This document shows, in pieces, positions 4,135-27,040 of a stretch of DNA of 28,180 bases. The position numbers were made by a program, and so were the translations under genes. Source of the DNA: a virus; IMG/VR virus record IMGVR_UViG_3300042569_001341, positions 1 to 28,180 of that record. One strand, written 5' to 3'. The notes beneath the pieces were generated by a model that was given only the letters and a program-made list of their open reading frames with translations, searched no databases and was not told where the DNA came from. Every line of letters begins with the position of its first letter. Positions within the stretch are counted from its first letter, which is position 1.

Positions 4135-4195
4135 CTCAGCCTTAGGACCGAGTGGGCGGCTTCTGCCCCGGATCAGGAAGTCGCTACTCCTGATC
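4126..4195 (+). terminator. Two hairpins at the 3' end of the LysM gene
   Basis: A 7-bp inverted repeat (GCCCACT at 4126-4132, AGTGGGC at 4151-4157) spans the stop codon of the LysM gene. A perfect 8-bp repeat (GATCAGGA at 4171-4178, TCCTGATC at 4188-4195) follows with a 9-base loop. There is no clean U-run after either stem, so this is not a textbook intrinsic terminator. The hairpins lie between convergent genes, so they could end or stabilise messages from either strand. Confidence 0.4.
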
Positions 4196-4207
4196 GAAAG
4201 TGAGCAC

Positions 4208-4741
4208 TTATTTCTTTCCCCGTGGATTTTTATGTTTGTAAGTCAGTCCAACATTCCAAGGGGTTCGTCCTTTGATTGACGCAGAGAGTTTTTTCTTTGC
4301 CTCGTCAGACATTTTCTTACCTTTACCAACCGATACACCTTTTTTGGCGTTGGAGATCTTTCTTTTGGTTTCTTCGGACATCGGCCTACATCCGTATGTA
4401 TTGCCCATCATTGCCGCAGACTTATTCCTCTTAAGGATTTCATATATACTTGCAGTAATTTTGTATCTTTCCTGGTTAGAACTTTTAATGGTCATCTGAA
4501 ATGCCGCATTGTGCATTTTAATTTTAGCTGTGTCCTCCCACACCATTTTAGTAAGCAAGCAGTGGCACACAAAATGTTCTTTTGCGGTGAGATTTACTAA
4601 ATTAGATGCAGAATTATTGCCACCTAAAGATCTTGGTATAATATGATGCTTTTCGGCATAATCTGTTACCGTTGTTCTTGACACAGCGGCATTAATAATA
4701 TTATAATACCAATGCGTATATTTGTTATCAATAAATATCAT
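4208..4741 (-). CDS. HNH homing endonuclease with NUMOD3 repeats
   Basis: This 177-residue protein has an HNH nuclease core at about residues 30-62 (EKHHIIPRSLGG, then NLVNLTAKEHFVCH), which supplies the His-Asn-His metal site. Two NUMOD3 DNA-binding repeats follow (MSEETKRKISNAKKG and MSDEAKKKLSASIKG) in a lysine-rich tail. The layout is that of free-standing phage homing endonucleases, which nick or cut related phage genomes to spread their own gene. The start chosen is the ATG at 4741, which has an AAGGAG ribosome site 8 bases upstream; an upstream in-frame ATG at 4762 would include that site inside the gene. It is the only minus-strand gene in the window and sits between the LysM gene and dsbA, consistent with insertion. 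Confidence 0.88.
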   Translation of the reverse strand: MIFIDNKYTHWYYNIINAAVSRTTVTDYAEKHHIIPRSLGGNNSASNLVNLTAKEHFVCHCLLTKMVWEDTAKIKMHNAAFQMTIKSSNQERYKITASIYEILKRNKSAAMMGNTYGCRPMSEETKRKISNAKKGVSVGKGKKMSDEAKKKLSASIKGRTPWNVGLTYKHKNPRGKK

Positions 4742-4802
4742 GCTGATTGCTCCTTGTAGCATTAGAGCTGGTGGATGTTGGTAGCATCGCGACCGGCACT
4801 TT

Positions 4803-4810
4803 TATTTATA
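4803..4810 (-). promoter_or_regulatory. T4-type late promoter for the HNH gene
   Basis: The minus strand reads TATAAATA, an exact match to the T4 late promoter element recognised by gp55. It lies about 60 bases upstream of the HNH start on the same strand, leaving a leader that contains the AAGGAG ribosome site. It also overlaps the upstream region of dsbA on the other strand. Confidence 0.55.
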
Positions 4811-4824
4811 TTAAAGGAAAAATT

Positions 4825-5082
4825 ATGACCAAAACATTCAACGGTGATCAGAAAATTAAATTGACAGCTATAGTAAACGAGGGTTGCCAGGTAATGCATG
4901 AAATTGACACGCTACAAGGTGGACTCAATGACACCATTAAAGCCGTGGCAGAAGAACTGGAAGTCAAGCCTTCTATCCTGAAAAAGGCCATCAAACTGGC
5001 ACACAAGGCCACGTTTGGCCAAGAAAAACAAGATCACGAAACACTGGAAACTATTTTGGAAACTGTGGGCAAGACTCTGTGA
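4825..5082 (+). CDS. dsbA: DsbA-like small dsDNA-binding protein (T4 type)
   Basis: This 85-residue helical protein resembles T4 DsbA, a small double-strand DNA-binding protein that stimulates late transcription; the similarity lies in the pattern and spacing of the stretch LNDTIKAVAEELEVKPSILKK. It has nothing to do with the disulfide oxidoreductase DsbA. The ATG at 4825 follows AAAGGAAAAATT, a good ribosome site, and is preferred over the ATG at 4747, which would add unrelated residues. The stop TGA (5080-5082) overlaps the GTG start of the next gene. A decayed second copy of its 3' half lies at 8067-8202. Family assignment is by eye and the protein is short, so moderate confidence. Confidence 0.6.
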   Translation: MTKTFNGDQKIKLTAIVNEGCQVMHEIDTLQGGLNDTIKAVAEELEVKPSILKKAIKLAHKATFGQEKQDHETLETILETVGKTL

Positions 5083-5717
5083 GTCAAACGTTTGATCTTC
5101 TTCATGACAATGGGAAACCTTTGTGTTTCGTGTCAACTGGGTCTCTAAGCAGTTCTATACACGCTGACCTATCTTGTTCAAGGCCCAGTAAATTGGCACG
5201 ATTTGAAGAGGTCAAAGAATTTGATCATTTTGATCGATATCAATACATCTGTCTTACCAGCGATATAGTTCTGAAAAAACAAGTAGTGAATTTTTTAGAA
5301 GATCGTGGCTGTAGTTTTTTTTCTGTGATACATAAGGTCAATCATCTGCATAACAAGATCGGACACGGTACTTTTGTCAATGGGTATAATCAAGGTATGT
5401 CTGGCGATCGTAGCCGTATTGGTAATCATTGCGTGATTGCAACACACAGTCTTTTGTCGCATGACTGTATTATAGACGATTTCTGTCATGTTAGCTCTTT
5501 TGCTTTTTTGGCCAGATGTCATTTAGAACAAGGCTGTTGTCTAGGTATACGAGTAAGTGTCTTTTCCGATCTTGATTCGGACAAGATTGCCAAGATCCCT
5601 GAATTCACGAATCTAATCAGCGGCTCCATGATAACCACACCTATACTGCAAGCAGGCACTTATTTCTCTAATAGAAGAATAAGTCACGAAACCAGTCTGA
5701 CTAAAAGAATACTGTGA
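5079..5717 (+). CDS. NeuD/PglD-like sugar O- or N-acyltransferase
   Basis: This 212-residue protein has an N-terminal alpha/beta part (about 1-85) followed by a left-handed beta-helix made of imperfect hexapeptide repeats (about 95-163: IGNHCVIATHSLLSHDCIID and FCHVSSFAFLARCHLEQ). His128 in SHDC sits where NeuD/PglD enzymes carry their catalytic base. Such enzymes transfer acetyl or other acyl groups from CoA to sialic-acid-like or aminosugars. The start is a GTG inside the dsbA stop (GTGA), giving tight translational coupling. The last codons overlap the next gene's GTG in the same way. Bases are visibly more AT-rich than in the replication genes, so the gene is probably a later arrival. Substrate is unknown. 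Confidence 0.7.
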   Translation: MSQTFDLLHDNGKPLCFVSTGSLSSSIHADLSCSRPSKLARFEEVKEFDHFDRYQYICLTSDIVLKKQVVNFLEDRGCSFFSVIHKVNHLHNKIGHGTFVNGYNQGMSGDRSRIGNHCVIATHSLLSHDCIIDDFCHVSSFAFLARCHLEQGCCLGIRVSVFSDLDSDKIAKIPEFTNLISGSMITTPILQAGTYFSNRRISHETSLTKRIL

Positions 5718-7126
5718 TTACATATTCCAACATGAACTACAATTTGTCTTACTTGTTATTATCACCTTATGCAGGCGAGGCCAAAATTGCACAAATTGAT
5801 AATTCTTGTAGTATCTCTTACCAAAATCTTTACAACAAAACTAAACAATTTGCCAATTGGATTAAAAACAAAAAAAAATTGATTCCAGGAGATCGAGTGC
5901 TATTGATATTTCCTGACAGTATTGAAACAACTATAGCCTTTTTAGGCACTATTTGGGCAGGTGGAATACCGTGTATAATAAATACTCAATCACATCGGGC
6001 CAATTTGGAATATAAATTAGAACAAATCAAACCTAGATTTGTGTTTGATAAAATAGATTTGAACTACTTGGATGAATCCAATGATATAGAGCCGGTATTT
6101 GCCTGTTACGAAGATGTGGCTTTTTTAACATGGACATCTGGCAGCGGAGGAAATCCCAAGGCTGTTATGATTTCACATGGTCCAATGTTAGAGGCAGTAA
6201 AAAACAATGTTCAAGGTCTTGCACTCACAAAACTAGACACAATTTATTGCACAGCCAGATTCTTTTTTTTGTATGGTGTTTGTCAAACTATTTTAAATTC
6301 TCTCTGGGTTGGTGCAACCAGTCTAATAGACAATAGACCATTCACGCCCTCTAGGATTGAAACAAATATCAAGCATTATCGACCCACTTTATTTTTAAGT
6401 GTTCCAACAATCTATAATTTAATCATAGATTGTTCTCCTGATACCTTTCTACATACCCGTTGCATCAGCTCAGGAGATATACTGCCAGATATACTTAACA
6501 ATCATTTTCAGATAAATTTTGGCCGCGGTATACACAATGGGTTTGGTGCATCTGAATTGTTACATCTTATAACACTTAATACTAAATATGACAACGCAAT
6601 TGGACATACTTTTCCGGGTTGGGAGGCCAGGATAGTTGATTCAAATGGCCAACCAGTCTCAACAAATGAGATTGGTTTTTTACAAATCAAAACACAATGT
6701 CATGCCACTGGTTACTGGAATGACATAGAAAATACACAAAAAGTCTTAGACCAAGAATGGATTCAATTAGGCGATTTGGTCAGGCAAGATATCAATGGAG
6801 TTTTGACTTTTGTCAGCAGATATAACGATGCAGTAAAGTTCAATAGCCAATATGTTGATTTGACAGCTCTTGAAATAATTTTTTTATCTAATCCTTCTGT
6901 CAGTGAAGCGGCGGTGGTAGGAGTTACTGACAAGCTAGGAAAAACTAAAGTGACTGCTTATTTGGTTGCTAAAAAAAATCTAAAAATATCTTTGACTGAA
7001 ATCACAAATTGGATGGAAGAAAATTGCACTTTTGACTATTTTCCACGTAAAATACAAATTGTAAGGGAATTACCTAAAAATGAAAATAACAAAATCGATC
7101 GTCGGATGCTCAAACAAAATGTATAA
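5714..7126 (+). CDS. Adenylate-forming (AMP-binding) acyl ligase
   Basis: This 470-residue protein belongs to the ANL family: acyl-CoA synthetases and related adenylating enzymes. Visible motifs are the phosphate-binding loop TSGSGGNPKAVMI (about 141-153), GFGASE (276-281), GDL around Asp354, the hinge RYNDAVKF (about 369-376), and the C-terminal catalytic Lys460 in NENNKIDRRML. All key positions are present, so it should be able to adenylate a carboxylate. It is slightly shorter than typical 500-550 residue ligases, has no fused carrier domain, and its acyl substrate cannot be read. The GTG start overlaps the acyltransferase stop; the pair may activate and transfer an unusual acyl group onto a sugar. 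AT-rich, like its neighbours. An NRPS A-domain is a less likely reading. Confidence 0.85.
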   Translation: MITYSNMNYNLSYLLLSPYAGEAKIAQIDNSCSISYQNLYNKTKQFANWIKNKKKLIPGDRVLLIFPDSIETTIAFLGTIWAGGIPCIINTQSHRANLEYKLEQIKPRFVFDKIDLNYLDESNDIEPVFACYEDVAFLTWTSGSGGNPKAVMISHGPMLEAVKNNVQGLALTKLDTIYCTARFFFLYGVCQTILNSLWVGATSLIDNRPFTPSRIETNIKHYRPTLFLSVPTIYNLIIDCSPDTFLHTRCISSGDILPDILNNHFQINFGRGIHNGFGASELLHLITLNTKYDNAIGHTFPGWEARIVDSNGQPVSTNEIGFLQIKTQCHATGYWNDIENTQKVLDQEWIQLGDLVRQDINGVLTFVSRYNDAVKFNSQYVDLTALEIIFLSNPSVSEAAVVGVTDKLGKTKVTAYLVAKKNLKISLTEITNWMEENCTFDYFPRKIQIVRELPKNENNKIDRRMLKQNV

Positions 7127-8027
7127 AATACTTGTTGTTTTAGTTTTGATATTGTCTTGGCCACCTGTCTGGGCAAAGACTCCAGTTACAATTATATGGC
7201 CTTTTGGTGTTGGTAGCACTTTATTAAATTACACTCGTGCCATTGTTAACAAAGCCAATCAAGATCAAAATCAATACAATTTTTTTCTAGAAGTAAAACC
7301 CGGTGCTGGCGGAGCAATTGGCGCAACACACGCCGCAAACATGGTTAACAATGGACAACTGGCCCTTTTGTCTACCACAGATGCTTTTTTTATTCGTCCC
7401 CTATTAGTAACTAGCGCCACCAACTATAAAATAGAAGACTTTCAACTGGTATTACCACAAGCAAGCACACCAATGAGCTTGGTTGGCAAACCTGGGGTGT
7501 CATTGGAGTCGCTGTTACACAAACCCAGATCTAGTATAGGTACAGTGGGTATGGGAACCGGTACTCATGTCATGGCTGAACAAATCCGTCTACGTGCGGT
7601 AGACATGATCATAATTCCTTTTAAGGATCCTCCAGAATCTGTGCAACAAGTTATTACAGGAGACTTGGATTTAGCCTGGGAAAACTTACCATTGTCTCTC
7701 AATAATCCACGCCTGCAAATTTATGGCATCACCGGTAAAACTCAAGTACCGGGAGTAAAAAATTTAGCAGATTTAGGTTTTCCATTCACTGGCAATCTTG
7801 ACATTGTTTCCTTCATAGTGGCTCCTAAAAAACTGAATGCTAAACAATATAGTGAAATTCAAAATATTCTTATTCAAGCTCAAAAGACTAACAAATATTT
7901 GATTGATTCAATAGTCGCTAACAAAGGTGAAGCTATAAACATCAATGTACTGCAATATCATAATTGGTATAATACACGCCATAGGTTTTTCCAAGACATT
8001 ACACGAAATATAGAGCAAGTTGAATAA
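7119..8027 (+). CDS. Bug/TctC-family periplasmic binding protein
   Basis: This 302-residue secreted protein begins with a good Sec signal peptide (MYKILVVLVLILSWPPVWA, cleavage after VWA). The mature part has Bug/TctC features: IIWPFGVGST near the N-terminus, EVKPGAGGAIGATHAA, GTVGMGTGTHVMAEQ, a DLDLAWENLP region and the NLADLGFP pattern near the end. These proteins capture carboxylates in the periplasm for tripartite tricarboxylate transporters. No TctA or TctB membrane partner is present, so it would have to serve a host transporter or act as a free ligand binder. The ATG at 7119 is chosen because it starts exactly at the signal peptide and overlaps the ligase stop; the in-frame ATG at 7080 would spoil the signal. 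Confidence 0.8.
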   Translation: MYKILVVLVLILSWPPVWAKTPVTIIWPFGVGSTLLNYTRAIVNKANQDQNQYNFFLEVKPGAGGAIGATHAANMVNNGQLALLSTTDAFFIRPLLVTSATNYKIEDFQLVLPQASTPMSLVGKPGVSLESLLHKPRSSIGTVGMGTGTHVMAEQIRLRAVDMIIIPFKDPPESVQQVITGDLDLAWENLPLSLNNPRLQIYGITGKTQVPGVKNLADLGFPFTGNLDIVSFIVAPKKLNAKQYSEIQNILIQAQKTNKYLIDSIVANKGEAININVLQYHNWYNTRHRFFQDITRNIEQVE

Positions 8028-8057
8028 ATTTGAAAGTCCTGCTATGATAAGTATAAC
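8020..8057 (+). promoter_or_regulatory. Putative sigma70-type promoter before the radical SAM gene
   Basis: TTGAAT (8020-8025), 17 bases, then TATGAT (8043-8048) fits a host-type promoter. An overlapping alternative is TTGAAA (8030-8035), 16 bases, TATAAC (8052-8057). It lies between the binding-protein stop and the dsbA remnant. The DNA here is AT-rich, which makes chance matches likely. Confidence 0.35.
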
Positions 8058-8066
8058 ACAAGAGTT

Positions 8067-8202
8067 GTGGCCGAAGAACTTGAAGTCAAGCATACTATTT
8101 TGAAAAAACCATATAATTAGCACACAAGGCCACGTTTGGTCGTAAAAAACAAGATCACGAAACCTTATTAACCATTCTAGAGACTGTGAAAAAACACTTT
8201 GA
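8067..8202 (+). pseudogene. Decayed second copy of the 3' half of dsbA
   Basis: This stretch aligns with 4945-5082 of the intact dsbA gene at roughly three quarters of positions (hand count), including exact runs of 20 bases (4999-5018 and 8120-8139) and 19 bases (5028-5046 and 8149-8167). One base is missing near 8103-8110 and another close to the end, and an in-frame TAA follows the first shift, so it cannot encode the protein. The 5' half of dsbA is absent. The old stop TGA (8200-8202) still overlaps a TTG start for the radical SAM gene, mirroring the GTGA overlap after the intact copy. The two copies bracket the acyltransferase-ligase-binding protein cargo. Confidence 0.85.
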
Positions 8203-9242
8203 TTCCAATACTCATCCAAAACAAATTTGCCAAAAAAAAACTTTTTGGCAAATATTGTCTGGCTCCGTTTATACAAATAGCAATTGACATACACGGAAAC
8301 GTCAGACTGTGTGGATGTGATTCATGGATGCCCGCTGTGATTGGCAATATATTTATTTCAACTATCACAGAGATTTTGTCAAGCATTATGGCCCAGACTA
8401 TTAGGCAGTCTATAATCGACGGATCCTATGATTATTGCAACGAAAAACAATGCGGAATCATCAGACACAATCAACTTAATGATCGAGATAACTTGCCTCC
8501 CAAGGTACATTGGCAGATTGAAGATTCAAATAGATTCATAACACCTTATGAAATAGTATTGGCCGGAGATATAACTTGTAATTTAAGTTGCCCCAGCTGT
8601 CGTACCAGTGTGATCAAATCCAACGATGAGTTCAAAGAAAAACAAGAACAACTGGGCGATATTATGAGAAAACATTTGTTTTCAAAACCCACTAATGATA
8701 AAATCAATCTCACAGTCAGTACCAGCGGTGAAGTGTTTGCTAGTCCCATGTTGCTGAGATTTATTTCCAACATCAATGCCAACGACTTTCCAAACCTGAC
8801 ACTGACATTGCAAACAAATGGCTTGTTGGCTCCGAAGTTTTGGCACAAGCTGAACAATATGCAAAACAAAGTTAACAAAACCACAGTCACAGTCGACGCC
8901 GCAAGACCCGAAACATATAAAAAACTTCGTCGTGGTGGTGCATGGAAAGACATTGTGGCCGCATTAAGTTGGTTCAAAAACAAAAAACACGAAACTGGTA
9001 TGAAATTCCATACTCGCATAGTAGTACAACGGGACAATATTGATCAACTTGATGAATTTTACCATTTTTCTAAACAATTTGATGTAGATATTGTAGAATA
9101 TGGTAGAATTGGAGATTGGCATACCATGGACAATTTTCATGAAATTGATGTGCTTGACAGCAGTCATCCTAAATATCGTGAGGCCAGACAGGCCATGGAC
9201 CAAGTGTTACAGTACCAAGATGCCATGGCATGGGGTGGTTGA
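8199..9242 (+). CDS. Radical SAM protein with N-terminal SPASM-like domain
   Basis: This 347-residue protein carries the radical SAM cluster motif C127-x3-C131-x2-C134 (CNLSCPSCR), which binds the 4Fe-4S cluster that cleaves S-adenosylmethionine. Upstream, residues about 20-85 look like a SPASM auxiliary-cluster domain (CLAPFIQIAIDIHGNVRLCG, then C80 and C85). SPASM normally follows the barrel, so the order here is reversed. Barrel strands continue through TLTLQTNGL and TVTVDAARPETY. The start is uncertain: TTG at 8199 is the first possible start after a stop, it overlaps the dsbA remnant stop, and no clear ribosome site is seen. AT-rich. Substrate unknown; peptide or sugar modification are both possible. 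Confidence 0.72.
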   Translation: MIPILIQNKFAKKKLFGKYCLAPFIQIAIDIHGNVRLCGCDSWMPAVIGNIFISTITEILSSIMAQTIRQSIIDGSYDYCNEKQCGIIRHNQLNDRDNLPPKVHWQIEDSNRFITPYEIVLAGDITCNLSCPSCRTSVIKSNDEFKEKQEQLGDIMRKHLFSKPTNDKINLTVSTSGEVFASPMLLRFISNINANDFPNLTLTLQTNGLLAPKFWHKLNNMQNKVNKTTVTVDAARPETYKKLRRGGAWKDIVAALSWFKNKKHETGMKFHTRIVVQRDNIDQLDEFYHFSKQFDVDIVEYGRIGDWHTMDNFHEIDVLDSSHPKYREARQAMDQVLQYQDAMAWGG

Positions 9243-9255
9243 GGCATCATAAGTA

Positions 9256-9279
9256 TTCAAGAGTCGTTCACTCTAAGAA
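9256..9279 (+). promoter_or_regulatory. Small hairpin in the polymerase leader
   Basis: AGAGT (9260-9264) and ACTCT (9270-9274) pair around a CGTTC loop, with three further pairs (TTC/GAA) outside a small internal loop. It lies about 40 bases before the polymerase start. T4 gp43 represses its own translation through a leader hairpin, so this could be an analogous operator, but the sequence is different and the stem is weak. Confidence 0.25.
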
Positions 9280-9315
9280 CATGAATCATGGCCAACCAGC
9301 CACAAATGGAGACAG

Positions 9316-11976
9316 ATGAGTTATATTGACGCACTATTTGATCGTGAGCACGATCGTATTCACACTGTAGAACGCCGCAACGGCGAACGAGTATATAGAG
9401 AGTATCCTGCTAACTATATTTTTTACTATGATGATCCCCGCGGTAAATTCCAAAGTATCTATGGCACACCCGTATCAAGATTTTCAACACGCAATAACAA
9501 AGAGTTCCGCAAGGAGGTCCGCGTTCACAGCCATCGGCCGATTTATGAAAGTGACATCAACCCAATCTTTAGATGCCTTGAAGAAAACTACAAAGACCAA
9601 GATGCGCCTGAACTTCACACAGCGTTTTTTGACATTGAGGTGGCTTTTGATAAAGACCGCGGCTTCTCACCTGTATCGGACCCTTTTAATCCCATTACTG
9701 CGATTTCAGTCTATCTCGACTGGCTAGACCAACTGGTCACGCTGGCTGTGCCACCCAAACACTTGAGTTGGGATACTGCGCATGAACTGGTCCGAGACTT
9801 TGAAAACACAATCCTGTTTGCTGACGAAGCAGACATGATCAAAACATTCTTGGACTTGATTGATGATGCAGATGTGTTGAGTGGCTGGAACTCAGAAGGA
9901 TATGACATTCCCTATACTGTCAACAGATGTGTGCGAGTGTTGAGCAAAGATGACACACGTAAATTTTGTTTATGGGGGCAACTGCCCAAGAAGCGAGTGT
10001 TTGAACGCTTTGGTGCAGAGAATGAAACATATGACTTGATTGGTCGTGTGCATATGGACTATATGCAATTGTATCGCAAGTACACATATGAAGAACGTCA
10101 CAGTTATAGCCTTGATGCCATTTGTGAATACGAACTGGGCGAACGCAAGACACAGTTTGAAGGCACCTTGGATAGTTTGTATAACCAACACTTCAAAACA
10201 TTTATTGAATACAACCGCCAAGACACTTTGCTGATCGGCAAACTGGACAAGAAACTGCGCTTCTTGGATCTGGCCAACGAACTGGCACATGCCAACACAG
10301 TACTATTACAGACCACCATGGGTGCTGTGGCAGTAACTGAACAAGCCATCATTAACGAAGCTCATGAACGTGGCATGGTTGTGCCCAATCGCAAGCAACG
10401 ACTCACAGACGAAGACACACAGGCTGCAGGTGCTTATGTGGCCTATCCCAAGAAAGGTGTGCATGAGTGGATCGGATCAGTGGATATCAACAGTTTGTAT
10501 CCCAGTGCAATTCGCGCCATGAACATGGGTCCAGAGACTGTGGTAGGACAACTGCGCCAGACCATGACTGATCGATTGATCAAGAGCAACATGGCCAAGG
10601 GACAGAGTTTTGCGGCTGCCTGGGAAGGTATCTTTGCCAGTTTAGAATACACAGCCGTGATGAATCAAGAGCGTGGCACTGAGATCACAATTGACTGGGA
10701 GTCGGGTGAAGAGTCAGTACACTCAGCCGCCGAGATTTGGAACATTATCTTTGACTCCAACCAACCTTGGATCCTGACTGCTAATGGTACTATTCTTACA
10801 TTTGAGAAGAAGGGTATCATTCCCGGCTTGCTAGAGCGTTGGTATCGTGAACGGCAAGAACTACAAGCTCGGAAGAAGGACGCAAAAGATGCCAAAGAAA
10901 TTGCTTTCTGGGACAAACGACAACTGGTTAAAAAGATTAACCTCAACAGTCTCTACGGGGCTATTCTTAACCCGGGTTGTAGGTTCTTTGACAAACGTAT
11001 TGGACAGTCAACAACACTTACTGGTCGTTCAATTGCCAGGCACATGGACGCTCATCTTAATGAGTGTATCACAGGCGAATACGACCATGTGGGAAAAGCA
11101 GTTATATATGGTGACACAGACTCGTGTTATTTCTCCGCGTGGCCGGTCCTCAAGACCGAAGTTGAAGAAGGCCGGATGGCATGGTCAAAAGAAACTTGTA
11201 TTCAACTGTATGACAGCCTTGCTGAGCAGGTCAACAAAAGTTTTCCCGCCTTCATGGAACAGGCTTTCCATTGTCCACGGGACATGGGTGAATTAATCAA
11301 GTGCGGTCGTGAAACTGTGGCAGATCGCGGATTGTTTATTACCAAGAAGCGTTATGCTGTCAACGCCATTGACATTGAAGGCAAGCGCCTGGATGTTGAA
11401 GGCAAGATTGGCAAAACCAAAGCCACAGGACTTGACTTAAAGCGTAGTGACACTCCTAAAGTTATTCAGGACTTCTTGTTAGAAATTCTAAATAAACTAC
11501 TTGCTGGTGCTGGCAAGGATGAGATTGTAGAACGTATCCGTGAATTCAAATACGAGTTCACGGAGCGTCCGGGTTGGGAGAAAGGTTCACCCAAGCGTGT
11601 GAACAACTTGACCAAGTATGCGGCAGAGGAAACTCGATTGGGCAAAGCAAACATGCCAGGACATGTGCGAGCCGCAATCAACTGGAACAACATGCGAAAG
11701 ATGAACAGCGACAACTACTCAATGGCCATTGTTGATGGTATGAAAACTATTGTGTGTAAACTCAAGTCAAATGCACTTGGGTGGACCAGCATTGGGTATC
11801 CTACAGATGAGCAAAGACTGCCCACTTGGTTCACTGAGTTGCCGTTTGATGATTCAGAGATGGAAGCCACTGTGGTGGATGGCAAGGTTGATAACTTGTT
11901 AGGTGTGCTAGACTGGGATCTAGCATCAGCAACCAACACAGAAAATACATTTACTAACTTATTTGATTTTGAATGA
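9316..11976 (+). CDS. 43: Family B replicative DNA polymerase (gp43 type)
   Basis: This 886-residue protein is close in length to T4 gp43. The proofreading exonuclease is intact: Exo I FFDIE (D106, E108), Exo II WNSEGYD (N192, D197) and Exo III YNRQD (Y299, D303). The polymerase palm has motif A DINSLYPSA (D390), motif B KINLNSLYG (K540 to G548) and motif C YGDTDS (D600, D602), plus a KKRY element. The C-terminus TFTNLFDFE resembles the clamp-binding tail of RB69/T4 polymerases. The start has GGAGA 4 bases upstream. The last codon overlaps the next gene's ATG. It is the main phage replicase, working with the clamp encoded downstream at 12949. Confidence 0.97.
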   Translation: MSYIDALFDREHDRIHTVERRNGERVYREYPANYIFYYDDPRGKFQSIYGTPVSRFSTRNNKEFRKEVRVHSHRPIYESDINPIFRCLEENYKDQDAPELHTAFFDIEVAFDKDRGFSPVSDPFNPITAISVYLDWLDQLVTLAVPPKHLSWDTAHELVRDFENTILFADEADMIKTFLDLIDDADVLSGWNSEGYDIPYTVNRCVRVLSKDDTRKFCLWGQLPKKRVFERFGAENETYDLIGRVHMDYMQLYRKYTYEERHSYSLDAICEYELGERKTQFEGTLDSLYNQHFKTFIEYNRQDTLLIGKLDKKLRFLDLANELAHANTVLLQTTMGAVAVTEQAIINEAHERGMVVPNRKQRLTDEDTQAAGAYVAYPKKGVHEWIGSVDINSLYPSAIRAMNMGPETVVGQLRQTMTDRLIKSNMAKGQSFAAAWEGIFASLEYTAVMNQERGTEITIDWESGEESVHSAAEIWNIIFDSNQPWILTANGTILTFEKKGIIPGLLERWYRERQELQARKKDAKDAKEIAFWDKRQLVKKINLNSLYGAILNPGCRFFDKRIGQSTTLTGRSIARHMDAHLNECITGEYDHVGKAVIYGDTDSCYFSAWPVLKTEVEEGRMAWSKETCIQLYDSLAEQVNKSFPAFMEQAFHCPRDMGELIKCGRETVADRGLFITKKRYAVNAIDIEGKRLDVEGKIGKTKATGLDLKRSDTPKVIQDFLLEILNKLLAGAGKDEIVERIREFKYEFTERPGWEKGSPKRVNNLTKYAAEETRLGKANMPGHVRAAINWNNMRKMNSDNYSMAIVDGMKTIVCKLKSNALGWTSIGYPTDEQRLPTWFTELPFDDSEMEATVVDGKVDNLLGVLDWDLASATNTENTFTNLFDFE

Positions 11977-12948: not shown

Positions 12949-13671
12949 ATGAGAGATTACTTATTAGACTTGGTAGAACACACTTACGACCTTGGTTGTA
13001 TTGACCTGGTTAAGATTGTTGGAGACACCAGCAAGACCGAAATTGTGGGATTGGCAGAAGATTTGAGTGTGGTCATTCGCGGCAACTTCCACAACCCTGT
13101 GGCAGACTTTGTGGGCACATTTGGCATGCCTAACTTGGGCAAACTAAAGACCTTGCTGAACTTGCAAGAGTACCGGGAAGATGCCAAACTCACTATCACC
13201 AAACGTGCAGACGGTGAACCAGATGGTATTACATTTGAAAACAAAATTGGCGACTTTAAGAACAACTATCGTTTCATGGCCTCGGGCATTGTAAACGAAA
13301 AACTAAAGACTGCCAAGATCCGCCCTGTGACCTGGCACATTGAGTTTGAACCAACCAATGCAGCCGTTCAGCGAATGAAGTGGCAAATGAGTGCCAACGC
13401 AGAAGAAGCCAACTTCCAGGCCAAAACTGAAAACGGTGATCTCAAGTTTTTCTTTGGTGATCACTCAACCCACTCAGGTAACTTTGTGTTCCACCCAGGT
13501 GTGAGTGGTCAACTCAAACGTGCATGGTCTTGGCCAGCCAAACAGTTTGTGAGCATCATGGACTTGACTGGTGACAAGAAAGTTCGCATCTCGGATGATG
13601 GTGCCGCAGAAATCACAGTTGATTCTGGACTAGCAGTATATCAATATCTATTACCAGCACAAAGCAAATAA
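12949..13671 (+). CDS. 45: Sliding clamp (gp45-like)
   Basis: This 240-residue protein is close in size to T4 gp45 (228). It has the alternating beta-strand text of processivity clamps, an internal FNP-like TWHIEFEPTN region and the end DSGLAVYQYLLPAQSK, which is typical of T4-like marine and freshwater phage clamps. The trimeric ring holds the polymerase on DNA and, in T4, also activates late transcription. A strong ribosome site and a consensus-like promoter precede it. Its stop overlaps the start of the DpdA-like gene (TAATG), so the two proteins are made together. Confidence 0.85.
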   Translation: MRDYLLDLVEHTYDLGCIDLVKIVGDTSKTEIVGLAEDLSVVIRGNFHNPVADFVGTFGMPNLGKLKTLLNLQEYREDAKLTITKRADGEPDGITFENKIGDFKNNYRFMASGIVNEKLKTAKIRPVTWHIEFEPTNAAVQRMKWQMSANAEEANFQAKTENGDLKFFFGDHSTHSGNFVFHPGVSGQLKRAWSWPAKQFVSIMDLTGDKKVRISDDGAAEITVDSGLAVYQYLLPAQSK

Positions 13672-15236
13672 TGACTGACCCTGTTGTTCAAGACAACTTA
13701 ACCGCCAAGCAGTTGGACTATGCAATTTTTCTCCCAGCTATCTCGGGGTTTTATGCTACATTCATAGGCAAGCAAAGGAATGAACCATATGTGGATCCGG
13801 CTCGACTTCCTCAGAGTCTTACTGATATGGAGCAACTTAATTGGCTCAACAGCACCAAAGCTCTTTTCCCGTACAAGTGGTCACTCTACTCAGGAGGCCA
13901 TGCTAACCTCGATCTTGCAAAACAAGACTGGTCAGAGGACATGGTGCGGTCCCGAGAGCCTGGAACGTTTATTCTGGGAGACTCTGGAGGGTTCCAGATT
14001 GCCAAGGGTCTTTGGGAAGGCGATTGGAAAGCCAACTCAGGTTGTGCCAAGGCTCAAAAGAAACGAAGTCTGATCTTAAACTGGTTAGACAATGTAGCAG
14101 ACTATGGTATGATCTTGGATATTCCCACATGGGTTATTCACGACAAGAAGGCATCAGCGGCTTGTCAGATCACCACACTACAAGAAGCAGTAGACGCTAC
14201 CAAGTTCAACAACGAGTACTTCATGAAATACCGCAAAGGTGTTGCCAACGGCGGTGCCAAGTTCTTGAATGTGTTGCAAGGCGATAACCATACGTCAGCA
14301 GACCAATGGTATGAAACCATGAAGGAATACTGCGATCCTGCCAAGTATCCAGACACACACTTCAATGGTTGGTCGATGGGTGGACAGAACATGTGTGACG
14401 TACACCTGGTGCTTCGCAGACTGGTAGCACTACGCTATGACAATTTACTTCAAGAAGGCCGACATGATTGGATGCACTTCTTGGGAACCTCCAAACTGGA
14501 GTGGGCTGTTTTATTAACTGTAATCCAAAGGGCTGTAAGAAAATATGTCAATCCAAACTTCACAATCTCGTTTGACTGCGCCAGTCCGTTCCTTGCAACA
14601 GCAAACGGACAGGTCTACTTTGAAAATGTCTTTGAACACGATAGCAAATGGTCGTATCGCATGGCTCCTTCAGCCGATGACAAAAAATATTCCACAGACA
14701 CACGCAAGTGGGGAACAGGCGTAGTAGCAGATGGTATCTATCCACGTTGGGAAGATTCACCTATTAGTGATCTGCTCAAGATGAAAGATATTTGCATCTA
14801 CAAACCTGGCGATCTAAATAAGATTGGTAAAGAAGGCAAGACATCCTGGGATAGTTTCTCATATGCTTTGCTCATGGGCCATAATGTTTGGATGCACTTG
14901 ACAGCAGTACAAGAAGCCAATCGGCGTTTTGATGCAGGAGAACATCCTGCCATGATGCGTCGTAGTGGTGGCGACTATGCCAAGTTTGAAGACATTGTGG
15001 AAGCAATCTTTGCGGCATCAGATCGCGAGACTGCCGACGCTATTATCGAAGAGTATGACACATATTGGATGGAGATTGTGGGCACACGAGGGTTCAAAGG
15101 CAAAAAGACCAAAAATGCTCGTACACAATTCAATGCATTGTTTGAATTCGAAGAAACTGAGACTGTACAACCAAATGATGATAGTGTACAATTAGACACA
15201 TCAGCATTAGATCAATTAGAAAATGAACAGACCTGA
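13671..15236 (+). CDS. dpdA: DpdA-like DNA guanine transglycosylase
   Basis: This 521-residue protein is related to tRNA-guanine transglycosylase (TGT). GDSGGFQ (D104) matches the TGT SDSGGFQ loop with its general base. NVLQGDN (about 200-206) and GWSMGGQ (233-239) match the substrate-binding VQGG and AIGGL regions. FDCASPF (D302) matches the TGT FDCV segment that carries the nucleophilic aspartate. The TGT CxCxxC zinc site is not visible, a known divergence in DNA-acting relatives. In phages, DpdA proteins exchange guanine in DNA for 7-deazaguanines. The C-terminal tail (484-495, RTQFNALFEFEE) resembles a clamp-binding peptide. The start overlaps the clamp stop. The partner enzymes FolE, QueD and QueE lie downstream in this window. 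Confidence 0.82.
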   Translation: MTDPVVQDNLTAKQLDYAIFLPAISGFYATFIGKQRNEPYVDPARLPQSLTDMEQLNWLNSTKALFPYKWSLYSGGHANLDLAKQDWSEDMVRSREPGTFILGDSGGFQIAKGLWEGDWKANSGCAKAQKKRSLILNWLDNVADYGMILDIPTWVIHDKKASAACQITTLQEAVDATKFNNEYFMKYRKGVANGGAKFLNVLQGDNHTSADQWYETMKEYCDPAKYPDTHFNGWSMGGQNMCDVHLVLRRLVALRYDNLLQEGRHDWMHFLGTSKLEWAVLLTVIQRAVRKYVNPNFTISFDCASPFLATANGQVYFENVFEHDSKWSYRMAPSADDKKYSTDTRKWGTGVVADGIYPRWEDSPISDLLKMKDICIYKPGDLNKIGKEGKTSWDSFSYALLMGHNVWMHLTAVQEANRRFDAGEHPAMMRRSGGDYAKFEDIVEAIFAASDRETADAIIEEYDTYWMEIVGTRGFKGKKTKNARTQFNALFEFEETETVQPNDDSVQLDTSALDQLENEQT

Positions 15237-17633: not shown

Positions 17634-18481
17634 TGTTATCTCCGAACGACATTACTTGGGTTCATGTCGAAGCAAGTTCAAAATGTAATGCGTGGTGCCC
17701 AGCATGTCCTAGGAATAATCACGGATTTGGATTAGTGCCTGGCCTAATAGAGCAAGATTTACTCCCTTCAAAACTTGAGGAAATACTTGCAAAATTGCCA
17801 GCAGTAAATACCGTTCAATTGTGCGGCAACTATGGTGATCCAATTGCTTCAATGTACATCAATGATATAATAGCTGTCTCAAAAAAGTATGCTAAAAAAA
17901 TACAAATTCATACCAACGGTAGCATACGAAACAGTAACTGGTGGGCAAAGTTTGCACAAACATTATCAGATATTGATCACGATGTATGGTTTGGTATAGA
18001 TGGTTTATCAGGCGTACATGAAATCTATCGGCAAGGTACAGACTTTGAAAAAATAATAGAAAACGCACAGTCATTTATCGAACACGGCGGAGTTGCTACC
18101 TGGCAATTTATTCCTTACCATCACAACGAACATCAAATGATAGAGTGTTTAAAAATGAGCCAGCAGTTAAAATTTAAGAAGTTTCATCTTGCCAAGTTGT
18201 ATAGGAAACAAACAACCGCAAGACATTACAGGACAGGCCAAGAATTTAATCTGTTGCCTACTAATTCGTTAAGGTCACTCATCAATATTGATTGTAATAA
18301 TGCAAAAGTTGAAGAAAAAAATTGTATGCACTTATCTATTCCAAGTATATATGTGTCTGCAAGTGGCAATATTAGTAAATGTTGTTATCTGGCATCATCT
18401 GAGCCATTACAAACGATAGATCAGACATTGAGAATTGGTCCTAATCTGACAAACAAAATATGCATTAAAAACTGTGGATAA
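17633..18481 (+). CDS. Radical SAM/SPASM protein
   Basis: This 282-residue protein has the radical SAM motif C18-x3-C22-x2-C25 (CNAWCPACPRN), a GNYGDP segment where the GGEP motif is usual, and a C-terminal auxiliary-cluster region (NCMHLSIPSIYVSASGNISK, then CC and a terminal CIKNC). This is the normal SPASM order, unlike the gene at 8199. The start overlaps the previous stop (TAATG). It is more AT-rich than the genes on both sides, suggesting insertion into the glycosyltransferase-epimerase run. Such proteins modify peptides, sugars or cofactors; no substrate is evident. Confidence 0.8.
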   Translation: MLSPNDITWVHVEASSKCNAWCPACPRNNHGFGLVPGLIEQDLLPSKLEEILAKLPAVNTVQLCGNYGDPIASMYINDIIAVSKKYAKKIQIHTNGSIRNSNWWAKFAQTLSDIDHDVWFGIDGLSGVHEIYRQGTDFEKIIENAQSFIEHGGVATWQFIPYHHNEHQMIECLKMSQQLKFKKFHLAKLYRKQTTARHYRTGQEFNLLPTNSLRSLINIDCNNAKVEEKNCMHLSIPSIYVSASGNISKCCYLASSEPLQTIDQTLRIGPNLTNKICIKNCG

Positions 18482-18482
18482 T

Positions 18483-19430
18483 ATGAAAACAATAATTGTT
18501 ACCGGGGTATCCGGATACATTGGTGGACAAACTGCCTTGCTGCTGAAAGACGCAGGGCATGATGTTTACGGCATTGACCGTAGAGATCCACCCAAACACC
18601 TGCGTGGCATCTGCGACAAATTCTTGTATCAAGACTTTGCTAGTGACGTTGCCCTGAGTTGGATCATCGCAAAACAACCCGATGCTATTGTTCATTGTGC
18701 CGGTACTAGTCTTGTTGGCCCAAGCATGCAAGACCCTAGTGAGTACTACAACAACAATGTGGCCAAGACATTACGACTACTAGACATTGTTCGCAAAAGT
18801 TTGCCACGTTGTAGAGTTATTTTTAGTTCGTCAGCGGCCACATACGGTGAACCGTTGTTGGATGAGTGTCACGAGGTTGATCCTTGTGAGCCTGTGAGTC
18901 CATACGGTCAAAGCAAGCTCATGATTGACATGATATTAGAATCATATCGAGTGGCATACAATCTTGACTACGTGAGCTTTCGTTACTTCAATGCTTGCGG
19001 TGCTGATCCTCAAGGACGCCACGGACAAGAACCGGGTGCCACACACTTGATTGCTCGGTTGTTAGAAGCCACAAGAGATGATGGACAATTTAGAATATAT
19101 GGTGATGACTATCCTACTGCTGATGGCACTTGCATCAGGGATTATGTGCATGTTGAAGATATTGCTCGAGCACATGCTTTGGCCCTGGATCTCAAGATTC
19201 CTGCAGGCATATACAACCTTGGGTCAAATTCGGGCACCAGTGTCAAACAAATAATGGACCGTGCAAGAAAGATTATTGGTAAAATGCCTTACATTGGTGT
19301 AGAGGCTCGTCGTGCAGGTGACCCTCCCGAGTTAACTGCAACCTCTAAAAAGTTTGATCTTGTAGCAGGGGGTTGGCGTCATCATGATCTAGACGCAATG
19401 ATTCAACACGCATGGTCATGGTATGTTTGA
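18483..19430 (+). CDS. galE: NAD-dependent sugar epimerase (GalE-like)
   Basis: This 315-residue extended SDR has the NAD-binding TGVSGYIGG (7-15), an SSSAATYGE strand and the catalytic PYGQSK (Y141, K145 counted from the ATG at 18483). FRYFNACGADPQGRHGQ and ATHLIARLLEA, plus IRDYVHVEDIARAH, are classic UDP-glucose 4-epimerase signatures. Substrate could be UDP-glucose, UDP-GlcNAc or a related sugar. The ATG at 18483 is chosen over a GTG at 18474 because it starts exactly at the Rossmann strand. It overlaps the next gene by 8 bases. Confidence 0.88.
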   Translation: MKTIIVTGVSGYIGGQTALLLKDAGHDVYGIDRRDPPKHLRGICDKFLYQDFASDVALSWIIAKQPDAIVHCAGTSLVGPSMQDPSEYYNNNVAKTLRLLDIVRKSLPRCRVIFSSSAATYGEPLLDECHEVDPCEPVSPYGQSKLMIDMILESYRVAYNLDYVSFRYFNACGADPQGRHGQEPGATHLIARLLEATRDDGQFRIYGDDYPTADGTCIRDYVHVEDIARAHALALDLKIPAGIYNLGSNSGTSVKQIMDRARKIIGKMPYIGVEARRAGDPPELTATSKKFDLVAGGWRHHDLDAMIQHAWSWYV

Positions 19431-20020: not shown

Positions 20021-20767
20021 ATGACAGATAAAAAAGAAACAGCCATAGACGCCATAGCCGGAGAGGGTGGCTACGGACTAGGCAAAGTGTGTGACCACCT
20101 TCGCTTTAAATTTAAACGTGACGGAAAAAGATTCTGGGCCGGCGACAACGTTAGCGAGTATATTGACGAGTCAATGAAAGAGCAACTGATTGACGAAGCC
20201 ACAACAGCGTTTGAGGGTGTGCTAGATGCACTACTAATTGACAGAGAAAATGATCCCAACTCACAAGGCACAGCAAGGCGTCTTGCTAAAATGTATTTCG
20301 ATGAAATCATGTCTGGCCGTTATGAGGCGAGCCCTAATGCTACGGCTTTCCCGAACGATACGGACGGAGCATATGACGGTATGCTTGTGGTGCGTAGCGA
20401 GCTTAAGAGCATGTGTAGCCATCATCACCAACCTGTTACGGGCGTGGCTTATATTGGAATCATTGCTGGTCCCAAACTCATTGGTCTTTCCAAGTACACC
20501 CGTATCGCCCAGTGGTGTGCGCGACGAGGAACTCTTCAAGAGGAGTTGTGCATGGACATCGCTCGTGAGATTGAATTTGCCACTGGATCATCCGATGTCG
20601 CTGTTTATATTCAGGCTACCCACGGATGTTGTGAGAATCGTGGTATTATGGCTCACAGTAGTCTTACCCAAACTACCGTACTACGTGGAGCATTCAAAAC
20701 AGACCAAAGCGTGAAGAAGGAATTCTTTGACAACATTAAATTACAACAGGACTTTGCACCACGATGA
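20021..20767 (+). CDS. folE: GTP cyclohydrolase I
   Basis: This 248-residue protein catalyses GTP to 7,8-dihydroneopterin triphosphate, the first step towards both folate and 7-deazaguanines. The zinc and catalytic residues are visible: C132 and H135 in MCSHHHQP, and C203 in ATHGCCENRG. The conserved PKLIGLSKYTRIAQWCARR and SSLTQTTVLRGAF blocks are also present. It is slightly longer than the usual 190-225 residues because of the N-terminus and a stretch around NDPNSQGTARRLAK. It overlaps the HIT gene by 4 bases. With QueD and QueE nearby, its purpose is most likely to feed DNA 7-deazaguanine modification. Confidence 0.95.
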   Translation: MTDKKETAIDAIAGEGGYGLGKVCDHLRFKFKRDGKRFWAGDNVSEYIDESMKEQLIDEATTAFEGVLDALLIDRENDPNSQGTARRLAKMYFDEIMSGRYEASPNATAFPNDTDGAYDGMLVVRSELKSMCSHHHQPVTGVAYIGIIAGPKLIGLSKYTRIAQWCARRGTLQEELCMDIAREIEFATGSSDVAVYIQATHGCCENRGIMAHSSLTQTTVLRGAFKTDQSVKKEFFDNIKLQQDFAPR

Positions 20768-21168: not shown

Positions 21169-21250
21169 ATATTCTTTTAAGTGGTCTCAGACATCATTCC
21201 CACTTTACAAACTCTGCTGTCTAAGCTAAAATTAACATAGGAGAAACAGC
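21169..21250 (+). repeat. Hairpin-promoter-RBS module, copy 1
   Basis: This intergenic stretch is an imperfect duplicate of 21962-22045. It holds a stem AAGTGG (21179-21184)/CCACTT (21200-21205) with an inner GTC/GAC helix, then the promoter and ribosome site of the methyltransferase. In copy 2 the stem positions change in a compensating way (AAGCGG/CCGCTT and GCC/GGC), which supports a real RNA structure, perhaps a transcript end for the upstream gene. Confidence 0.75.
21204..21245 (+). promoter_or_regulatory. Sigma70-type promoter and RBS, methyltransferase
   Basis: TTTACA (21204-21209), 17 bases, TAAAAT (21227-21232), then AGGAG about 8 bases before the ATG at 21251. The -10 box is weaker than that of copy 2 (TATAAT). 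Confidence 0.6.
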
Positions 21251-21961
21251 ATGAACAATCTAAACGATTACAGTATTGCACATTGTCAAGAATACTGTAA
21301 ATCACTTCCATTCTATCGAAACATTGAACAAGATTTTGACATTCTATGGTGGGACAAATCGTGGGCAGACATTTATAATAGAACATACACCCCGAGGGAA
21401 TATTACAGCCGAAAACACACATTTCCAGAGCGCAGTATATTTTCAATGGTTCCATTTTTTTACTTAAAACCTCTGTTAGAAAAAAATCCAAAAACAATAT
21501 ATGACTTAGGAGCCGGCTATAATATTTTTAAAAAATATATACCAAATATTATAGGTATAAGTCCCACCCACAATACTGATAACTATAGTGACATTCATGA
21601 TATAGTAGATGCTGAGTTTGTTTGTGGGCACCAAAATTATTTTACATCTGTTTTTTCAATTAATGCTTTGCATTTCCGGCCGTTGATAGACTTAAAGGCA
21701 GTAATACAAGAATTTGCATCAATGATTGCACCTGGTGGCCGTGGGTTTTTATCGCTAAATATTACAAGAATGATTGAAAGAACTCCAATTGAATTGTTGA
21801 ATCAAGCGTTAGGAACAATTCAGCCTACTAACAATAACTATAGCGAATACACTCGGAAAGTATTATCGGACATTAATCTTAATTATTTAATAGTTGATGT
21901 AGACTTGACTGAGATGGATAACCCTATGGATGGTAATATCAGAATCGTTGTTGAAAAATAA
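21251..21961 (+). CDS. SAM-dependent methyltransferase (class I)
   Basis: In this 236-residue protein, motif I is IYDLGAGYN (83-91). An acidic/His segment (NYSDIHDIVDAEFV) follows, then NALHFRPL and the post-motif helix VIQEFASMIAPGGRGFLSL, all typical of class I methyltransferases. Acceptor is unknown; small-molecule or sugar methylation is most likely, and no DNA-target domain is visible. The gene is strikingly AT-rich and stands between two copies of the same hairpin-promoter module, splitting folE-HIT from queD, so it looks like an inserted single-gene cassette. Confidence 0.75.
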   Translation: MNNLNDYSIAHCQEYCKSLPFYRNIEQDFDILWWDKSWADIYNRTYTPREYYSRKHTFPERSIFSMVPFFYLKPLLEKNPKTIYDLGAGYNIFKKYIPNIIGISPTHNTDNYSDIHDIVDAEFVCGHQNYFTSVFSINALHFRPLIDLKAVIQEFASMIAPGGRGFLSLNITRMIERTPIELLNQALGTIQPTNNNYSEYTRKVLSDINLNYLIVDVDLTEMDNPMDGNIRIVVEK

Positions 21962-22045
21962 ATATCTCTTTAAGCGGCCTATTGGCATCGTCCCGCTTTA
22001 CAAACTCCGCCGCCTATGCTATAATTTAACATAGGAGAAAACAGC
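21962..22045 (+). repeat. Hairpin-promoter-RBS module, copy 2
   Basis: This is an imperfect duplicate of 21169-21250. The stem AAGCGG (21972-21977)/CCGCTT (21993-21998) and the inner GCC (21977-21979)/GGC (21984-21986) covary with copy 1. The 3' arm overlaps the -35 box. The stretch from the -35 box to the start codon is almost the same in both copies, down to the ACATAGGAGAAA leader. Confidence 0.75.
21997..22037 (+). promoter_or_regulatory. Strong sigma70-type promoter and RBS for queD
   Basis: TTTACA (21997-22002), a 17-base spacer and a perfect TATAAT (22020-22025), followed by AGGAG (22033-22037) 8 bases before the ATG at 22046. This should be read by host RNA polymerase early in infection. 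Confidence 0.7.
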
Positions 22046-22543
22046 ATGACACCAGTAGTTTACAAATATACCTCAACCAAAGAGTACCACGACGCATTTC
22101 CATGTGCCTACAGACAGTGGAGGGCAGACAGTCATTGTAACTTGATACACGGATATTCATTTAGCATGAAATTTTTCTTTGGTACAGATGAACTAGATGT
22201 GCGTAACTGGGCCGCAGACTATGGTGGACTCAAAGAACTCAAAAAGACTCTAGAAGATCAATTTGACCATACTCTTTTGGTCAGTTCCGATGACCCGGAA
22301 TTAGAAACATACAAACTATTACAAGAAAAGAAAATGGCTAAACTCACTATCCTGCCTCGATTAGGCTGCGAGGGATTGAGCGATATGCTTTACAAATATG
22401 TGAATGCTGTCTATATTCCAGATATGTGGGGACCAGGTGAGGCGGCTCGTTTATGGTGTTATCGTGTAGAAGTGCGCGAAACACAGTCCAACATGGCATT
22501 CCGTGAAGGTCACCGTGAATGGAATGAAGATTTATTTGCTTGA
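22046..22543 (+). CDS. queD: QueD-like 6-carboxytetrahydropterin synthase
   Basis: This 165-residue T-fold protein of the QueD/PTPS family converts dihydroneopterin triphosphate (the FolE product) to 6-carboxy-tetrahydropterin. Visible features are H15 near the N-terminus, the catalytic-Cys/zinc block C31-NLI-H35-G-Y37, a NWAADYGGLKELKK strand-helix (compare WIIDFAELK), FDHTLL with the Asp-His pair, and VEVRET with the substrate-binding Glu. The second His of the usual HGH motif is Tyr37, so the zinc site is altered. It has its own strong promoter. The overall pattern and the FolE/QueE context make QueD the best call. Confidence 0.8.
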   Translation: MTPVVYKYTSTKEYHDAFPCAYRQWRADSHCNLIHGYSFSMKFFFGTDELDVRNWAADYGGLKELKKTLEDQFDHTLLVSSDDPELETYKLLQEKKMAKLTILPRLGCEGLSDMLYKYVNAVYIPDMWGPGEAARLWCYRVEVRETQSNMAFREGHREWNEDLFA

Positions 22544-23467: not shown

Positions 23468-23870
23468 ATTTTACAGCGTTCAACATCCAGATCAAGTTAT
23501 TGCAGTGGTATTTAATATTGACTCCATACAAGAATCACGTTATAATGCTGGCAGTGACAATGAAATTTTACAAGTATCAGCCATGTGTTTTCCACAAGGT
23601 CGATCCCTTAGATCACACTATCATGTGCCTACAGAAAGAACTACAGTGGGCACACAAGAATCTTGGATAGTGTGGCAAGGCAGTCTGAAAGTTACACTAT
23701 ATGACTTTGATCAGACTGTAGTCAGTGAATTTGAAATTGGTGCCGGAGATTGCATGACTTTATATCGAGGTGGACATGCATTTACTGTGCAAGATGATAA
23801 TACAAAAATTATTGAAATAAAGAATGGACCCTATTATGGCCCCGAGCATGATGCAAAGTCGATCAATTGA
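23454..23870 (+). CDS. Cupin protein (sugar-epimerase-like fold)
   Basis: This 138-residue single-domain cupin has a first motif around RSHYHVPTERTTVGTQESW with metal-ligand-like His residues, a WQGSLKVTLYD strand pair, a GDCMTLYRGGHAF second motif and an IEIKNGPY end like WbuC/WxcM-type proteins of glycan clusters. The TTG at 23454 is preferred, with AAAAGGG about 9 bases before it; a GTG at 23427 would lengthen the overlap with the upstream gene. It could isomerise a keto sugar or be regulatory. Confidence 0.65.
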   Translation: MEKNKFYSVQHPDQVIAVVFNIDSIQESRYNAGSDNEILQVSAMCFPQGRSLRSHYHVPTERTTVGTQESWIVWQGSLKVTLYDFDQTVVSEFEIGAGDCMTLYRGGHAFTVQDDNTKIIEIKNGPYYGPEHDAKSIN

Positions 23871-25062: not shown

Positions 25063-25469
25063 AGAAGATTAATATTTTTACACAAGACAATCCTGGTTTA
25101 GAACGTCACACAGATGATCGAGGAACCATTGCTGACATATTTTTTAATGCTCAGTTACACCATGTTGCTGTGGTACAAAGCCGGGCACATGCCTTGCGCG
25201 GTAACCATTACCACAAAGAATCCACACAACACATGTTGATGACCAAAGGTAAAATGGAATACTGGTACAAGCCTGTAGGATCGATTGAACCCAGTCAAAT
25301 GGTCATAGCCGAAGTTGGCGATTTGGTCAGTACTCCTCCTAACGAAATTCACGCATTACGTTACCTAGATGAAGACAGCGAATTTATTGTGTTCTCTGAA
25401 GGCCCACGTGGCGGCTCCGATTATGAAGCAGACACATTTAGAGTGGATAGCATATTTGATTACCAATGA
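25059..25469 (+). CDS. WxcM/FdtA-like cupin sugar isomerase
   Basis: This 136-residue cupin has DDRGTIADIF near the start, the motif LRGNHYHKESTQHMLMTKGK with paired His residues, a GDLVSTPPNEIHALRYL second motif and a late FSEGPRGG turn. This is the pattern of dTDP-4-keto-sugar 3,4- or 3,5-isomerases of the WxcM/FdtA group. It is joined to its neighbours by ATGA overlaps on both sides. It would act on a 4-keto sugar such as the Gmd product or a dTDP sugar. Confidence 0.7.
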   Translation: MKKINIFTQDNPGLERHTDDRGTIADIFFNAQLHHVAVVQSRAHALRGNHYHKESTQHMLMTKGKMEYWYKPVGSIEPSQMVIAEVGDLVSTPPNEIHALRYLDEDSEFIVFSEGPRGGSDYEADTFRVDSIFDYQ

Positions 25470-27024: not shown

Positions 27025-27040
27025 CAAGAAAGATCACAAT

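Follow-up and report, generated by a model that had tools for sequence, protein, structure and literature searches.

A 28,180-nucleotide (nt) stretch of viral DNA, referred to as the window and consisting of a 28-kb fragment of the IMG/VR virus record IMGVR_UViG_3300042569_001341, appears to carry two dsbA-cargo units in tandem ahead of its DNA polymerase gene. The first would comprise an intact dsbA, the genes of an acyltransferase, a CoA ligase and a TctC-type solute-binding protein, a promoter and the first bases of the polymerase leader, and the second a 5'-truncated dsbA, a radical SAM gene, a promoter, the full leader and the polymerase gene itself (Table 1). This arrangement was probably produced by illegitimate recombination between two related phages bearing different cargo, followed by decay of the dsbA copy that had become redundant. 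The evidence comes from the anatomy of the junction between both units, from the pattern of divergence of the broken dsbA and from the occupancy of the same site in related phages.

An intact and a broken copy of dsbA

The 3' half of dsbA (4945-5082) recurs at 8067-8202, with 106 of 135 positions identical (78.5%) in a gapped alignment, two 1-base deletions and a single TAA nonsense codon that closes the dsbA frame. An earlier note, made from the letters of the window, had described this repeat; its coordinates, both deletions and the in-frame stop are borne out by gapped alignment and frame reading, and its hand-counted identity of about 75% comes close to the measured value. The same note had named short low-complexity runs as what would undo its claim. 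The local score of the repeat is 119, against a maximum of 36 among 3000 dinucleotide shuffles, so that the repeat is not of low complexity and a chance origin is ruled out. When the 5' half of dsbA was sought in the 167 nt at 7900-8066, the score (15) fell under the shuffle median and similarity ended at 8067; the second copy is therefore 5'-truncated. Both copies end in a TGA that overlaps the non-ATG start of a cargo gene, as the note had observed: the GTG at 5079 overlaps the TGA (5080-5082) of the intact gene and the TTG at 8199 that of the broken one (8200-8202). While right on the repeat and the overlaps, it had overlooked the relict of a putative promoter and leader at the junction, the homing endonuclease gene (HEG) on the opposite strand at 4208-4762 and the fact that the intact dsbA is mosaic at its 5' end.

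Table 1. Features at the dsbA-polymerase locus of the window.
Feature	Position	Strand	Basis
Structured RNA-like element, left border of the dsbA neighbourhood	4141..4205	+	CUUAGGACCG...GGCGGCUUCUGCC...UCGCUAC...GUGAGC
Free-standing HNH/NUMOD3 homing endonuclease gene, divergent to dsbA	4208..4762	-	phrog_655 E=3e-39, NUMOD3 E=6e-14
HEG 5' leader with TATAAATA box (4803-4810, -)	4739..4812	-	98.6% identical to L149 and L150
Intact dsbA, 85 aa, mosaic	4825..5082	+	family matches, MaxChi
Cargo 1a: PglD/NeuD-like hexapeptide acyltransferase, GTG on dsbA TGA	5079..5717	+	family matches
Cargo 1b: AMP-forming acyl/aryl-CoA ligase, GTG on stop of 1a	5714..7126	+	family matches
Cargo 1c: TctC/Bug-type periplasmic solute-binding protein, signal peptide	7119..8027	+	family matches
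Relict of putative promoter ATAAGTAT and first leader bases CAAGAGT, right end of unit 1	8047..8065	+	pattern count
Broken 3' half of second dsbA, two 1-base deletions and one nonsense codon	8067..8202	+	alignment
Cargo 2: radical SAM protein, SPASM/twitch-type cysteines, TTG on broken-dsbA TGA	8199..9242	+	family matches
Promoter-like box ATAAGTA (9249-9255) and hairpin leader of polymerase gene	9243..9315	+	comparison of relatives
Family B DNA polymerase, constant right neighbour	9316..11976	+	family matches

A relict of the polymerase leader at the junction

The leader of the polymerase gene contains two conserved hairpins ahead of the ribosome-binding site, with compensatory pairs in hairpin 1, and these hairpins recall the translational operators of T4 gene 43. 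From 9249 onwards this leader reads ATAAGTAT-T-CAAGAGT, and the spacer ahead of the broken dsbA reads ATAAGTAT-AACA-CAAGAGT at 8047-8065. In 1.69 Mb searched on both strands, the pattern ATAARTA-N2-10-GAGTYG is found 42 times at polymerase leaders and, away from them, only at position 8047 of the window and in two relatives (L101 and L108; L numbers denote loci of relatives), where it marks true displaced leaders. This relict suggests that, at the junction, one dsbA-cargo unit stops at its right end and a second dsbA takes over from midway on. A CGT possibly common to both sides of the crossover is too short to weigh.

Divergence of the broken copy and its origin

When the variability of each site is judged among functional dsbAs, the two copies differ at 23 of 66 variable sites versus 6 of 70 conserved ones (Fisher p=2.7e-4), and 19 of the 23 variable-site differences show states found in relatives. 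A polarised test, which kept only those sites at which the window is identical to its nearest relatives, L006 and L011, places changes at 15 of 51 variable and 5 of 69 conserved sites (p=0.002). This excess at variable sites suggests that most of the divergence arose in a functional dsbA, before the junction truncated the broken copy; since a copy truncated at birth could not evolve under such constraint, truncation must have come after most of the divergence, which favours a dsbA from another phage over the decay of a local duplicate. Furthermore, the broken copy ends in CTTTGA, as do other dsbAs that precede cargo with a TTG start, radical SAM genes included (L093, L120, L205, L265).

The alternative is a tandem duplication of dsbA, together with its neighbours, in a single lineage, after which new cargo landed either between the two copies or behind them and the second copy decayed. 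A copy of this kind is seen in a mirror image of the window arrangement, found in two contigs of one phage (L241 and L242, 99.9% identical), where the order is broken dsbA, radical SAM gene, intact dsbA, another cargo gene and polymerase. There the first copy is the broken one; it has a putative promoter, a clean internal deletion of 126 nt and near-identity to the phage's own intact dsbA. Both window copies also bear features of the native clade such as KATFG, and the dsbA tree permits them to be sisters. Nevertheless, the broken copy of the window is 5'-truncated at a polymerase-leader junction, yet its divergence lies mostly at sites that vary among functional dsbAs, so that full-length duplicates would have had to diverge by about 20% while both were functional and then lose a 5' half. 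We therefore consider a duplication in the window unlikely. The presence of radical SAM genes on either side of dsbA is what would be expected if tandem units form and either dsbA is lost, and independent insertions on both sides of dsbA would yield the same picture.

Several observations weigh against recombination between two phages. In the polarised test, 11 of the 15 variable-site changes match states of relatives when 9.2 are expected by random mutation, so that this state-matching sub-test adds little. In the IQ-TREE analysis of dsbA, the approximately unbiased (AU) test gives p values of 0.43 for the best tree and 0.58 for the tree with both copies forced together; this tree, drawn from at most 136 informative nt that are too few and saturated, leaves it possible that the two copies are sisters. 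When the 39-nt spacer is freely aligned with the leader, the match reaches only p about 0.01, and the weight of their likeness comes from the position of the spacer and the pattern count. In L241, the near-identity of the broken copy to its own dsbA makes a recent local duplication likely there, and the local-duplication route thus likely operates in these phages as well. Finally, neither a phage with unit 1 alone nor a second contig with the exact junction was found in IMG/VR.

The earlier note had offered recombination between related phages or an old duplication that decayed, and had looked to a tree of both dsbA copies to part them. The tree does not do so; the site-class tests and the anatomy of the junction favour the former origin and make the latter less probable. 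A chimeric contig, in which the assembler mis-joined two related phages at dsbA, is compatible with a junction known from one contig only and with a contig that is a fragment of a virus assembly. A mis-join at a common repeat leaves intact copies, whereas the second copy here has a nonsense codon, two frameshifts, changes at conserved sites and a leader relict at its edge, and the flanks upstream and downstream resemble the same clade; an artefact of this kind is very unlikely.

The dsbA-polymerase interval is a cargo hotspot

In 225 metagenomic relatives, dsbA is followed by a family B DNA polymerase gene. The 133 distinct dsbA-polymerase intervals comprise 80 that are occupied and 53, mostly 66-79 nt long, that are empty. 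In 52 of the 53 empty intervals, dsbA ends inside a TATAARTA box whose TAA serves as its stop; this box is a T4-late-promoter-like motif and putative promoter, and the conserved polymerase leader comes after it. TAARTA is kept at the dsbA stop in 3 of the 80 occupied intervals and is present near the right end in 53 of them, and the polymerase leader stands at the right end of the cargo. Within the window alone, the late-promoter-like box (TATAAATA-type 8-mer) is no commoner than chance.

The occupied intervals hold at least 10 unrelated cargo clusters, including radical SAM proteins, a ClpP-like protease, several unknown families, tryptophan-halogenase-like flavoproteins with a hexapeptide acyltransferase and a methyltransferase-like protein (the latter judged by eye). 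The same flanks hence enclose nothing in some genomes and unrelated genes in others, as expected of a hotspot. Among 80 loci fetched with the radical SAM family, the homologue lies directly behind dsbA in 51, the arrangement that the earlier note had proposed to look for, and just upstream in about 25. Together with the empty and occupied intervals, these loci give good support to its suggestion that dsbA served as a landing site at least twice. A second piece of dsbA, sought in all loci, is found only in the window, L241 and L242.

The start of the cargo commonly sits on the dsbA stop, with 25 NTGA and 14 TAATG overlaps among the occupied intervals. This raises the question of whether the broken dsbA is retained for a purpose, for instance as an upstream frame to which translation of the radical SAM gene, from its TTG start, would be coupled. 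The stop/start overlap is indeed kept, NTGA coupling to dsbA is common in these intervals, and T4 dsbA, a non-essential gene, is translationally coupled to gene 33 (PMC2988020). Against this, the nonsense codon and both frameshifts interrupt the dsbA frame, no start of its own is evident, and we regard a retained function as highly improbable.

In three relatives, stranded polymerase leaders were observed between two cargo genes (L101:2655, L108:1356 and L124:3357), the second cargo running straight into the polymerase gene. A second insertion hotspot lies left of dsbA, where the distance between the RNA-like element at 4141 and dsbA exceeds 300 nt in 69 of 161 loci and the insertions contain radical SAM genes, HEGs and unknown genes. 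Site-specific integration or transposition was also considered and set aside: no integrase, transposase or terminal repeats were recognised among the genes at 4208-9316.

A homing endonuclease gene and the mosaic 5' end of dsbA

The HEG stands next to a conserved gene and is missing from close relatives. Its three closest relatives (L149, L150 and L151; 70-77%) likewise adjoin dsbA divergently. Despite the near-identity of the HEG leaders (Table 1), the dsbA of L150 is just 81% identical in protein. The intact dsbA of the window is itself mosaic: its 5' ~62-90 nt follow the HEG-bearing lineage L149/L005 and the remainder the native clade L006/L011, with a breakpoint at ~4886-4914, i.e. nt 62-90 of the gene (MaxChi p 0.0002-0.0006). 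Such a tract would fit co-conversion through homing. As a separate observation, the HEG leader (4739-4812) is shared (93%) with L091:1180-1248, where the gene is GIY-YIG nuclease-like by eye; one promoter-leader may serve different homing endonucleases.

Taken together, the following course of events can be proposed. Each unit arose separately, by cargo filling the interval from the dsbA stop to the polymerase promoter-leader, as empty and occupied relatives show. As judged from the junction, an illegitimate exchange during co-infection would then have fused one phage, at the start of its leader, with the other, midway through its dsbA. The redundant, truncated second dsbA would afterwards have decayed, taking on substitutions, two deletions and a nonsense codon. 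In the intact dsbA, the first 60-90 nt look like the outcome of conversion through homing of the HEG; the mosaic is seen and its cause deduced. One-sided repair of a double-strand break made by the HEG product might also underlie the junction, an idea we regard as less likely than not, and the role of the HEG as driver of the tandem junction is plausible but unproven. More broadly, it is conceivable, if somewhat doubtful, that dsbA is a recurrent recombination anchor in this group of jumbo phages, where exchanges repeatedly create tandem units, either copy decays, and cargo accumulates and changes side, perhaps driven by HEGs.

Identity of dsbA and comparison with known systems

On its family matches, the window dsbA is predicted to encode a T4-type DsbA, a dsDNA-binding regulator of late transcription, and not a disulfide oxidoreductase (thiol oxidase), an identity that these matches reject. 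It matches phrog_639 (transcriptional regulator, E=1.6e-8) and phrog_12534 (E=9e-19), falls under the gathering score of Pfam PF11126 Phage_DsbA (E=0.003), and is 40% identical to DsbA of PA5oct/MIJ3 (tblastn). Among named phages, the closest polymerases belong to two jumbo phages, Phosso (51%) and Atu_ph07 (47%), where dsbA and polymerase are also neighbours, separated by one small gene in the former and by three in the latter. Relatives occur on contigs of up to 364 kb, and the window belongs to a T4-related jumbo phage. As in T4 (PMC2988020), a small DNA-binding protein of late transcription has a stop that overlaps the start of the next gene; unlike in T4, this next gene is variable cargo or is replaced by the polymerase leader, and there is no gene 33 at this place.

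As a process, this is a case of the mosaicism already known in phages. Boundaries of genetic exchange have been found to carry HEG islands and nuclease genes (Barth, Dunham and Seed 2023, PMC10448857). As in that work, the HEG of the window adjoins a core replication/transcription locus and the tract near it is almost identical to phages that differ farther along. In contrast, the exchange seen here left tandem cargo units and a broken anchor gene, and in place of HEGs on both sides a single one was recognised (4208-4762), with no nuclease gene in 5079-9316. In T4 phages, intronless homing with flanking co-conversion and illegitimate one-sided double-strand-break repair are known (reviewed in PMC2988022); the window likewise has a mosaic tract beside the HEG and a junction without extended homology, but this junction lies >3 kb from the HEG. 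For T4-related phages, ectopic insertion and illegitimate recombination have been proposed as means of cargo gain, in a review that reports little to point to the agents involved (Petrov et al. 2010, PMC2993671). The window shares with these phages variable genes between core genes and the lack of mobile-element signatures, and differs by its relicts, a promoter-leader and half a dsbA, that reveal which ends were joined.

Cargo gain by lytic phages at fixed hotspots without integrases or transposons has mostly been deduced from mosaic patterns. At the present locus, the junction is legible within a few bases, and a mirror case and hundreds of empty or occupied relatives define the site, which makes it a good test case for a model of recombination at an anchor gene, a transient tandem and decay of the spare anchor.

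Cargo genes and further observations

Cargo 1 is a tightly packed operon. The nearest solved relatives of its ligase are benzoate-CoA ligases, and its solute-binding protein is akin to terephthalate-binding proteins. The latter gene likely starts at the ATG at 7119, overlapping the end of the ligase gene, within a frame open from 7080. A role of cargo 1 in sugar modification or in uptake of aromatic acids is a guess. Relatives of neither the ligase nor the TctC protein were found in IMG/VR, and the acyltransferase-ligase-binding protein trio did not emerge as the presence/absence unit that the earlier note had suggested looking for; no phage relative of the TctC gene was found, and a search of genome_contigs with the ligase gave one distant match and no donor. 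The radical SAM protein alone also returned nothing as an IMG/VR query, its family being reached only by using an alignment.

The RNA-like element that borders the dsbA neighbourhood on the left, also written CUUAGGACCG...CGGCUGCUG...AUUCGCUAC...GUGAGC, is present in 162 loci, a single time in each, ahead of dsbA and on the same strand, and 9 of its 11 predicted pairs are backed by compensatory changes. It has no Rfam match and no match in 50,697 phage records, and is a candidate new phage RNA.

Farther along the window, genes at 13671-15236, 20021-20767, 22046-22543 and 26978-27877 resemble by eye those of tRNA-guanine transglycosylase, GTP cyclohydrolase, QueD and QueE, respectively, a set that suggests 7-deazaguanine DNA modification. 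Look-alikes of nucleotide-sugar enzymes (epimerase, dehydratase, isomerase and methyltransferase), recognised only by eye, are found at 18474-19430 and 23824-27024. Lastly, a 36-nt direct repeat (21198-21233 and 21991-22026, 83% identical) brackets the gene at 21251-21961.

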